DNA of 64,000 bases, taken from Ferruginibacter sp. (GTDB taxonomy: Bacteria; Bacteroidota; Bacteroidia; Chitinophagales; Chitinophagaceae). The DNA is taken from contig NZ_JAQBNR010000002.1 in the NCBI RefSeq assembly GCF_028288465.1, forward strand, positions 1-64,000, in the 5' to 3' direction. The position numbers were made by a program, and so were the translations under genes. A model generated the notes under the pieces. It saw only the letters and a program-made list of their open reading frames with translations, was not told where the DNA came from and ran no database searches. How positions within the stretch are numbered: position 1 is the stretch's first letter; each line of letters starts with the position of its first letter. Shown piece after piece: positions 6,750-11,155 of the stretch.

Positions 6750-6844
6750 AAAATTTAAGCGGGAAAATTTAGCTGGTCTAAGTTAAGCAGTTAAATTTAA
6801 ATACGCACAGCAGGCGGAAGGTGGGCATAAAGAAAGCAAAAATA

Positions 6845-6905
6845 TTGGTCCGGGCTGAGGAAGCTATGTGGAACATCGTTGCGTCGCCCTCTTGTGCTGT
6901 TGTGG
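6845..6905. repeat. dispersed intergenic repeat, copy 1 (pairs with 41801-41860)
   Basis: ttggtccgggctgaggaagctatgtggaacatcgttgcgtcgccctctt versus ttggtccgggctaagaagcaatgtggtgcattgttgcatcgccctctt. Confidence 0.7.
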
Positions 6906-7065
6906 GTATAGGGACCGGCGGGACGGTTATTAATTTGCATAACGATTACCTGAAATCGAGATAAAAAAATTACGGTAAAACATTAGTCTCTAATGCAATA
7001 TTTGAAACGATGGGTTTTAATATCCTACATTTACAGTCTTGGCTAAAATTAATTGACTCTCTCAT

Positions 7066-8607
7066 ATGCATAACATACAAGACACTTCCTTAGAATGGGC
7101 GTTATTACATGTGACGCACTATTATGACAGTGATTTCTTTCCTAGACTTTTTGAATTCGAAGCAATAAAAAGGGATTGGAAAAATATTAAAGAATATTTA
7201 TTAAAACTTGACTTAGATAAATATGCTGCTAAAAGCCCTGTAATTTATTTGGCATTAAAACCTAATAGCACTTTTAGAGTTGTTCACCAACTAGAGCCTT
7301 TAGACAGTATTATTTATTCGGCGTTACTTTATGAAAATTCATTAATTATAGAGAATTACAGAATTCCAGAAAGAAGAAAAATTGCATGTTCTTATCGAAT
7401 AAAACCAGATATTAATGGTTCCTATTTCGAAAAAGAATATAATGGGTACGGAGAATTTTTATCCCAAGCTGAAGCTTTGGCAGATGATTTTGACGGCGGG
7501 GTGGTCCTTGTGTGTGATATTGTAGATTTTTACAATCAAATTTATTTACATAGGATTAATAACGTATTAAGTGAAGCAGGTTCAAAAGATGGAAAAATCA
7601 TTGAGGATTTCCTAGGAGGATTAAACTATAATGTTTCCAGAGGAATACCAGTCGGACCGGCACCAAGTATATTAATAGCCGAAGCAATAATGGGTGATAT
7701 AAACAAAAAGATTCTTGGATTTACAAGCTCATTCGTTCAATATGTCGACGACCTATATATCTTTTTTGAAGATGAATATGATGCTAAATCATTTCTACAC
7801 GAACTGACGAAATATCTTTATTCTAACCATCGACTTGTCCTGTCGCCTGACAAAACAAAAATTTTAAAAGTTGAAGAATTTGGCGCCGAATATTTACGTG
7901 AAGAGAGTATTGTTGAAAAAGATGCCATACACAAAAAACTCGAAAGCTTAAGCGGCGATTACGCATCTCCAGAAGAAACAAAAGAATTTGAAGAACTGGA
8001 AGCTCCTGAAAAACTTAAAATCCGTTCCGAAACTTATCTTGAGTTATTTGATGAAGCATTAAAATTCGATAACCTTGAGCTAGGCCTAATGCGTCACATT
8101 TTAAGACAAGCAGGAAGGTATAAGATCAGGAACATCATTCCAAAAATATTTAAGAACTTCAGTAGACTGTTACCTGTAATCAGAGAAATTGTAATTTATT
8201 TTGACAGAGTTTTAAACGAACAAACGGTCAAAAAATACGAAAAAAAATTTACTGCCCTTTTGGAGAATCCGTACCTAAGTCTACCATTTATAAATATGTG
8301 GGTATTCACTCTATTTCAAAATGAACATTTTAATTCTATTTCTCTTACTATTGATTACTCTATAATAATTCGAATTCGAGAAAGAGCACTAATAGCAAAG
8401 AGAGAAAACAATTTAACCTTTATAAAGGATGTTAAAGATAGTCTTGATACCCTAGGTATTTGGGACAGACGGGCCATCTTATACTCGTCGATAATTTTGT
8501 CAGAAGACGAAGTAAAACACTGGCTAGGCTTAGAGAGTTCAAAGGGGGACGTCGTAAATAAAGCAATTTGCTCAATGGTTATTAGTGACAAAAAAAAATC
8601 CCGATAG
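7066..8607 (+). CDS. reverse transcriptase, UG/Abi (DRT-like) class, with C-terminal helical domain
   Basis: 513 aa; DIVDFYNQIYLHR (motif A, D151), RGIPVGPAPSILIAEA (motif B), QYVDDLYIFF (motif C), LSPDKTKIL (motif D); N-terminal DSDFFPRLFEFEAIKRDW; helical C-terminus ending DRRAILYSSIILSEDEVKHWL. Confidence 0.9.
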   Translation: MHNIQDTSLEWALLHVTHYYDSDFFPRLFEFEAIKRDWKNIKEYLLKLDLDKYAAKSPVIYLALKPNSTFRVVHQLEPLDSIIYSALLYENSLIIENYRIPERRKIACSYRIKPDINGSYFEKEYNGYGEFLSQAEALADDFDGGVVLVCDIVDFYNQIYLHRINNVLSEAGSKDGKIIEDFLGGLNYNVSRGIPVGPAPSILIAEAIMGDINKKILGFTSSFVQYVDDLYIFFEDEYDAKSFLHELTKYLYSNHRLVLSPDKTKILKVEEFGAEYLREESIVEKDAIHKKLESLSGDYASPEETKEFEELEAPEKLKIRSETYLELFDEALKFDNLELGLMRHILRQAGRYKIRNIIPKIFKNFSRLLPVIREIVIYFDRVLNEQTVKKYEKKFTALLENPYLSLPFINMWVFTLFQNEHFNSISLTIDYSIIIRIRERALIAKRENNLTFIKDVKDSLDTLGIWDRRAILYSSIILSEDEVKHWLGLESSKGDVVNKAICSMVISDKKKSR

Positions 8608-8630
8608 TCTCTATTATATATTGGGGGGCA

Positions 8631-8705
8631 TAGCAAGCGCCAAAAGTAATAACACCGTTAACGTAAAACCCAACGTTTAATACAGTACATCAATTGGATA
8701 CAACC
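8631..8705 (+). repeat. R-element copy R1 (degenerate)
   Basis: agcaagcgccaaaagtaataacaccgttaacgtaaaacccaacgtttaatacag aligns to the right part of R2/R3. Confidence 0.55.
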
Positions 8706-8770
8706 ATTTTTCTGCTACTAGCACTACAAAATGAATGATAGTAATACATTGATTTCGCAGGACTATTTTT

Positions 8771-8840
8771 CTGTCCCGGCGGGGTTTTCACAGCAAGCAC
8801 TAACGTTAATAACAAAACTTCCGTGAAACCCCGACGTTGA
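8771..8840 (+). repeat. R-element copy R2 (hairpin-forming)
   Basis: ctgtcccggcggggttttcacagcaagcactaacgttaataacaaaacttccgtgaaaccccgacgttgaa; arms ggggttttcac / gtgaaacccc. Confidence 0.85.
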
Positions 8841-8983
8841 ATACACTGCGTAAACGATATCCACTCCTCTTGTGTTACAACAATACAAAAGTACATAGGG
8901 CACCAACAGGTCAATATCCCTACTGCCTTTTTTCAACAACGTTTATTATCTCATATATTTACATTCTCATCCGCGATTTTAAT

Positions 8984-9099
8984 CTGTCCCGGCGGGGTTT
9001 TCACAGCAGGCACTAACGTTAATAAAATAGCTTCCGTGAAACCCCGACGCTAAATACACGACATCGATACAAGCTACCACTCTGCCACCAGCAGTAGCT
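8984..9099 (+). repeat. R-element copy R3 (hairpin-forming)
   Basis: ctgtcccggcggggttttcacagcaggcactaacgttaataaaatagcttccgtgaaaccccgacgctaaatacac; near-identical core to R2. Confidence 0.85.
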
Positions 9100-9237
9100 T
9101 TACAAATCCAAATAATGCAAAGGCCGGTGATGTCTAACCAATTGTATTTCATAAAACGCATCGCTGCTGAGTTCATACTCAACAAAATCCTTTGCCAGCA
9201 TCCACTTCCCGTTGAAAATATATTGCTGTGCGTTAAT
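9100..9237 (-). pseudogene. 3' remnant of a protein-coding gene
   Basis: Open minus frame with no upstream start: INAQQYIFNGKWMLAKDFVEYELSSDAFYEIQLVRHHRPLHYLDL*; abuts repeats on both sides. Confidence 0.45.
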
Positions 9238-9251
9238 TTATTGCCATAAGA

Positions 9252-9369
9252 TAAAGCTAACAAAACCGTAGAACGGGTACAACCTAATTGTATATTTGCT
9301 CAGCGTCGGGGTTTCACGGTAAGCGCATTCTAATTGTTGATGCAAGCTGTGAAAACCCCGCCGGGACAG
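9252..9369 (-). repeat. R-element copy R4 (inverted orientation)
   Basis: cgtcggggtttcacggtaagcgcattctaattgttgatgcaagctgtgaaaaccccgccgggacag is the reverse complement of the R2/R3 core with a variant loop; left flank aaaccgtagaacgggt shared with R6. Confidence 0.85.
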
Positions 9370-9388
9370 AATCAAACCACCTTTAGCA

Positions 9389-10522: not shown

Positions 10523-10588
10523 CGGTCTGGAAACATCCTGTCGCCGTAGTTGGTGTACTCCCATCCGATTTCTTTCGGTCGTTTTTTT

Positions 10589-10690
10589 GCAGCAGCACTA
10601 AAAGTAATAATACAGCTTGCGTAAAACCCCGACGTTGACTAAGCTGCAGCCGTAAAAGAGGCAACTTTCTAAAACGCCCGCACTTTACCA
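10589..10690 (+). repeat. R-element copy R5
   Basis: gcagcagcactaaaagtaataatacagcttgcgtaaaaccccgacgttgacta; 5' arm degenerate; flank aaaagaggc shared with R7. Confidence 0.7.
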
Positions 10691-10692
10691 AT

Positions 10693-10816
10693 ACTGTAAG
10701 ATAACGACTAAAAAACCGTAGAACGGGTGCAAGCGAATGGTTGATTTGCTCAGCGTCATGGTTGTACGGTAAGCACTTTATAACTGTTGATGTAAGCTGG
10801 GAAATCCCGCCGGCAC
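10693..10816 (-). repeat. R-element copy R6 (inverted orientation)
   Basis: aaaaccgtagaacgggtgcaagcgaatggttgatttgctcagcgtcatggttgtacggtaagcactttataactgttgatgtaagctgggaaatcccgccggcaca; aligns to R4 across core and left flank. Confidence 0.8.
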
Positions 10817-10922
10817 AAAAGACCGACAGATCACCCTTCATTTAAAAGACATAAATCTTAGCTCAATTGCCACATACTAATACTGCATTTTCTTCAACAT
10901 TGATCTGGCATCCCTACGTTAT

Positions 10923-10944
10923 ATCTACGTTAGCTAACGTAGAT
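10923..10944. repeat. 22-bp perfect palindrome
   Basis: atctacgttagctaacgtagat equals its own reverse complement. Confidence 0.9.
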
Positions 10945-11032
10945 GTATACAACATGTCAGCTATCAGCTGCGAAGAAGGTGGGAATGATCTGCCCCCTTA
11001 CCAATAAAAAATAAACCGCATGCTTTACAAAT

Positions 11033-11155
11033 TCTGTCCCGGAAGTGTTTTCACAGCTAGTACTAACAGTAATAAGACAGCTTCCGGGAAATCCCCGACG
11101 CTGATTAAACTACGTATATAAAAGAGGCGCTTCCTAAACCACTATCACGCTACAA
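11033..11155 (+). repeat. R-element copy R7
   Basis: ctgtcccggaagtgttttcacagctagtactaacagtaataagacagcttccgggaaatccccgacgctgatta...ataaaagaggcgctt. Confidence 0.8.

Follow-up and report, generated by a model that had tools for sequence, protein, structure and literature searches.

A predicted single-gene DRT8 antiphage reverse transcriptase in Ferruginibacter sp. with a candidate protein-priming tyrosine

Introduction

A stretch of 64,000 nucleotides from Ferruginibacter sp. (NCBI RefSeq assembly GCF_028288465.1, contig NZ_JAQBNR010000002.1, positions 1 to 64,000; hereafter the window) carries a reverse transcriptase (RT) gene on its forward strand at 7066-8607, which raises the question of whether such a gene could protect its host from phages on its own and, if so, from where its DNA synthesis would be primed. 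A preliminary description made from the sequence alone had called the product a stand-alone UG/Abi (DRT-like) RT and had left its UG group unassigned. Our analysis assigns the gene to DRT8, and we regard a single-gene antiphage polymerase with untemplated DNA synthesis primed by tyrosine 299 (Y299) as the probable overall explanation. The DRT8 family confers phage resistance by a mechanism that reviews give as unresolved (PMC13213688, PMC13314766). We found no published DRT8 mechanism, and reviews from 2026 list DRT8 as antiviral without an established one, which makes the Y299 prediction a useful product of this work. The analysis groups DRT8 with class 1, the DNA-making enzymes that act as single genes, and mutation of one residue, Y299, would test this placement directly.

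Family placement and active site

The gene is an open frame without internal stops, and its product matches the PADLOC Drt8 profile (E 3.2e-125, 417 bits) from RT residue 4 to 505, against profile positions 2-489 of 493. This score lies ~300 bits above the next group, the runners-up being UG21 (115 bits, 1.3e-33), UG20 (107), UG23 (80) and DRT6 (70), and the DRT6 and DRT4/UG15 profiles reach 44-70 bits. The NCBIfam models for group II RTs (37 bits versus a cut-off of 300) and for the retron St85 RT (22 versus 235) stayed far under their cut-offs. Pfam found RVT_1 alone (residues 146-269, E 3e-12), with neither a maturase domain nor the nitrilase or phosphohydrolase domain of class 3 UG/Abi enzymes such as DRT1. 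Homologues were collected by searches of whole genomes and contigs (~74 loci), and all 66 that were aligned match the Drt8 profile. On its full-length profile match, far over other groups, and its equal length and architecture, the window gene is assigned to DRT8, a known antiviral family that we take to be UG7 in the UG/Abi nomenclature, an equivalence that reportedly comes from Mestre et al. 2022. The hidden Markov model profiles thus name the group that the first reading had left blank.

The active site of the window RT is intact. All 14 residues invariant across the 66 homologues are retained, and D151 (codon 7516-7518), RGIPVGP and the YVDD at 7741 stand in the open 513-aa frame exactly where they had been described.

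In the tree, the window RT groups with sequences of Ignavibacteriota and Bacteroidota and then with those of Planctomycetota, Verrucomicrobiota and Chloroflexota (10 rows, support 95), the sister of this clade being a mostly pseudomonadotal group, while a clade containing Lacibacter and Chitinophaga (support 100) stands apart. DRT8 homologues occur in only 4 of the 299 genomes of the host's own family, and the RT gene is AT-rich, with a GC content of ~0.33-0.36 versus ~0.42 around it. The cross-phylum branching, the low GC and the rarity within the family point to horizontal transfer.

Predicted fold

An AlphaFold2 (AF2) model built with the 66 homologues reached a mean predicted local distance difference test score (pLDDT) of 95.4 and a predicted TM-score (pTM) of 0.92. 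In it, the RT core gives way to a domain made up of helices, with helices from residue 269 and paired helices at 339-511 as assigned by DSSP, in agreement with the helical C-terminal extension previously described and with the alpha-repeat domain that had been suggested as something to look for in a structure prediction. Foldseek against the PDB returned only DRT6, DRT4/UG15, AbiK, Abi-P2 or AbiA at ranks 1-18, with TM-scores by query of up to 0.59 spanning both domains; group II intron RTs followed, and DRT9, the DGR (diversity-generating retroelement) RT and DRT2 first appeared at ranks 23, 26 and 48. The model therefore predicts a class 1 UG/Abi fold. A sequence-profile search likewise ranked DRT6, Abi-P2 and UG15/DRT4 first. 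Profiles and fold together uphold the earlier view of a UG/Abi RT distinct from those of retrons, group II introns and DGRs, the last by fold rank.

Class 1 UG/Abi enzymes have alpha-repeat domains and synthesize DNA without a nucleic-acid template, whereas class 2 uses an adjacent non-coding RNA (ncRNA) and class 3 carries a nitrilase or phosphohydrolase (PMC13174585, PMC13275509). The best two-domain matches of the window RT were DRT6 and DRT4/UG15 (9wy8, 9vdo, 9l9s), described as single-gene systems (PMC13213688), although they share only 17-20% identity with it in structural alignment. AbiK and Abi-P2 likewise have an RT core plus a helical domain, and the established model of both has synthesis primed by protein and independent of a template (PMC9508834). 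By analogy, the window RT most likely performs protein-primed, template-independent DNA synthesis, and its antiphage activity is predicted from its family.

A candidate priming tyrosine

Conservation along the RT is lowest at residues 271-335 (mean 0.19), and the linker between core and helical domain is the lowest-confidence part of the AF2 model (pLDDT 74-82). Within this drifting segment, the Y299 column holds tyrosine in 62 of the 66 homologues when aligned with MAFFT auto, frequently as NPY. After realignment with L-INS-i the column was 92% tyrosine, the next best column of the linker region reaching 68%, and when linkers were shuffled and realigned the best tyrosine column reached 12-26% over 20 trials. 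This control replaced an alignment-free count of linker tyrosines (59/60 versus 54 expected), which was uninformative.

Precedents for such a primer are available, since priming in AbiK starts at Tyr44, which sits in a long mobile loop (PMC9508834), and a conserved tyrosine is the primer of DRT4, which makes random single-stranded DNA (ssDNA) as a single gene (PMC13314766). We propose Y299 as the protein-priming tyrosine of DRT8 because it is near-invariant in a drifting linker and because of these two examples. The Tyr44 of AbiK lies in an N-terminal loop, whereas Y299 sits in the linker that joins the RT core to the helical domain, and priming sites have been placed elsewhere in DRT3b (Y666; PMC13174585), DRT1 (S402; PMC13275509) and DRT10 (C-terminal Ser or Tyr; PMC12632851). 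That DRT8 combines untemplated synthesis from a linker tyrosine, a site unlike those of AbiK, DRT1, DRT3b and DRT10, with a one-ORF (open reading frame) system compact enough for an integron cassette is a possibility that we put forward tentatively, as just short of evenly balanced.

Two homologue loci (L037:8999 and L043:8891) have an in-frame stop within the linker, ahead of the helical domain, and may be broken copies or a split form.

A probable single-gene unit

The genes around the window RT are all ordinary (DUF1501, PSCyt/PSD1, acyltransferase, FAD oxidoreductase and P-type ATPase), and no defence genes occur among its ten nearest neighbours besides a weak PsyrA-like SLOG match. The lack of a recognized partner, first remarked at this locus, holds for the whole family: neighbours vary at nearly every one of the ~74 loci, and only integrases, resolvases and common or housekeeping enzymes recur. 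Gabija, Lamassu, HerA-type, restriction-modification and other defence genes lie near the RT at single loci, and a second gene overlapping the RT by 4 nt is confined to one distant group (L021, L022, L024 and L026). A partner gene was rejected given this lack of recurrence. One review ties DRT8 to a Cap17 PNP effector in some systems (PMC10952713); none was seen in the DRT8 loci surveyed, where no search by that name was made.

Regarding a flanking RNA, no Rfam match was found beside the window RT, and all-against-all blastn of 400-nt DRT8 flanks found no family-wide conserved segment, even among close homologues. The positive control consisted of two DRT3 loci obtained by a genome search; they have in common a 104-nt element (E 5e-13) immediately downstream of Drt3b, which is where the DRT3 ncRNA is located (PMC13174585). 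An adjacent ncRNA was rejected on these Rfam and flank comparisons.

Four loci (L039, L042, L051 and L062) carry two eight-base ends that are reverse complements of each other, the first 12-20 nt ahead of the start codon and the second at most ~10 nt past the stop, versus 0.06 loci expected by shuffling, and L062 has additional attC-like elements in array. Among three downstream attC-like strands tested, one folds better than all shuffles and the other two do not. These loci resemble integron gene cassettes that consist of one ORF flanked by attC-like ends, and as such cassettes would hold the RT ORF alone, they leave little room for an RNA or a partner. With no recurrent partner, no conserved flanking RNA and ORF-only cassettes in relatives, the DRT8 of the window is most likely a single-gene system.

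Proposed mechanism and alternative explanations

In the proposed mechanism, DRT8 would be trimeric or hexameric, as AbiK, DRT4 and DRT6 are, and its RT core would polymerize ssDNA from deoxynucleoside triphosphates (dNTPs) with no nucleic-acid template, both features being suggested by fold homology. As its conservation suggests, the hydroxyl of Y299, on the flexible linker, would prime synthesis in cis, so that the DNA would stay covalently attached to the enzyme. For DRT4, the model is that synthesis is made toxic or stable on infection, with ORF55 as the phage protein (PMC13314766, PMC13213688). By analogy, the infection signal for DRT8 may be a phage factor, for instance a DNA-binding protein as for DRT4, or altered dNTPs or nucleases, and it would let the DNA persist or the complex turn toxic, stopping growth before phage release.

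Several points weigh against this explanation. The window clade is only ~25% identical to the subclade with the highest scores on the PADLOC Drt8 model, and the whole-chain TM-score of 0.59 to solved relatives is moderate. The integron-cassette loci belong to the pseudomonadotal sister clade, and it is from them that we infer an ORF-only unit for the window's own clade; an RNA or a partner may also be encoded in trans. Besides, Y378 is conserved in 98% of homologues and is an alternative priming candidate, while Y299 could be structural or DNA-binding instead. This last point leads to the reading in which DRT8 is still a class 1 enzyme making untemplated or protein-templated DNA, but is primed elsewhere, either from Y378 or from the C-terminus as in DRT10, with Y299 having a structural or DNA-guiding role. 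The diversity of priming sites among AbiK, DRT3b, DRT1 and DRT10 favors it together with the conservation of Y378; however, Y299 is the sole near-invariant residue of a drifting flexible linker, the pattern expected for a mobile-loop primer, and conservation between DRT8 clades does not extend to the C-terminal end, hence we consider priming elsewhere unlikely.

It is also conceivable that DRT8 copies an ncRNA encoded beside the gene, like the class 2 systems DRT2, DRT9 and DRT10, and the 316 nt upstream and ~780 nt downstream of the window gene offer intergenic room for one. Nevertheless, the empty Rfam result, the lack of a family-wide conserved flank where the DRT3 control shows one, the relatives found as ORF-only cassettes or, at L066, with <50 nt of intergenic DNA on either side, and the fold ranking of class 1 far over DRT2 and DRT9 make this highly improbable. 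Finally, the RT might be an ageing or silent acquisition that no longer protects its host, as its AT-richness, its single copy and the existence of broken relatives (G243, plus L037 and L043 with their linker stops) could suggest; yet the window copy is full length, keeps all family-invariant residues and gives a model with a pLDDT of 95, and we find its loss of function rather improbable. Y299-primed synthesis by a functional single-gene DRT8 remains the explanation that we prefer.

Genomic setting and additional observations

The RT gene is present as a single copy in the 6.88-Mb genome, and the features of the locus are collected in Table 1.

Table 1. Coordinates of the features of the DRT8 locus, numbered along the window
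Feature	Position	Strand	Basis
DRT8 reverse transcriptase	7066..8607	+	Open frame, 513 aa; PADLOC Drt8 full-length E 3e-125; AF2 pLDDT 95.4
Motif A, DIVDFYNQIYLH, residues 151-162, catalytic D151	7516..7551	+	D151 and D154 invariant in 66 homologues
Motif B, RGIPVGP, residues 192-198	7639..7659	+	G193, P195, G197 and P198 invariant in 66 homologues
Motif C, YVDD, residues 226-229	7741..7752	+	D228 and D229 invariant in 66 homologues
Y299 codon, proposed protein-priming tyrosine	7960..7962	+	Near-invariant Tyr among 66 homologues
Variable flexible linker from polymerase core to helical domain, residues 285-316	7918..8013	+	Low conservation and pLDDT dip
C-terminal helical domain, alpha-repeat-like, residues 339-511	8080..8598	+	DSSP of AF2 model; two-domain alignment with DRT6, DRT4 and AbiK
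Possible Bacteroidota-type promoter, TTTG, 21 nt, TAcaTTTa	7001..7033	+	By-eye reading; weak match, possibly chance
High-copy interspersed host repeat copy, outside the RT unit	6833..6901		~40 genome matches
Degenerate 77-nt repeat copy, outside the RT unit	8628..8685	+	Local alignment above all 300 shuffles
Three 77-nt repeat copies, outside the RT unit	8770..9376		8770-8846 (+), 8983-9059 (+), 9302-9376 (-)

The gene had been described as bordering a repeat-rich stretch typical of variable loci. The repeats are real, but they are interspersed genome-wide, and both families were rejected as part of the RT unit for this reason; the repeat-rich flank is thus explained by two genome-wide host repeat families. 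The one upstream of the RT has a unit of ~60 nt, and the 77-nt family has up to 21 genome matches over several contigs. This GC-rich 77-nt repeat (TCTGTCCCGGCGGGG...GACGTTGAATACAC) occurs in direct and inverted copies at 8628-9376 and 10584-11116 and in inverted pairs on four other contigs of the same genome (C25, C80, C38 and C86), resembling repetitive extragenic palindromes (REP) or miniature inverted-repeat transposable elements (MITE). No empty site was readable, the downstream acyltransferase being without a counterpart at E 1e-60 in 58 genomes of the same genus.

Additional observations were made at the homologue loci. At three of the ~74, which may be chance, DRT8 homologues lie near ribonucleotide reductase genes (L045:5621-11448, L070:3226-7935 and L053:12703-15837), the RT sitting between the large- and small-chain genes at L045 and 63 nt past the small-chain gene at L070. 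In the distant group with an overlapping second gene, that gene (~246 aa) overlaps the RT stop and may mark a two-gene relative, and three of the four loci adjoin phage-type integrases. Moreover, on a viral contig (L018:3964-6013), genes of 317 and 367 aa without a Pfam match lie directly downstream of DRT8, possibly a separate defence pair.
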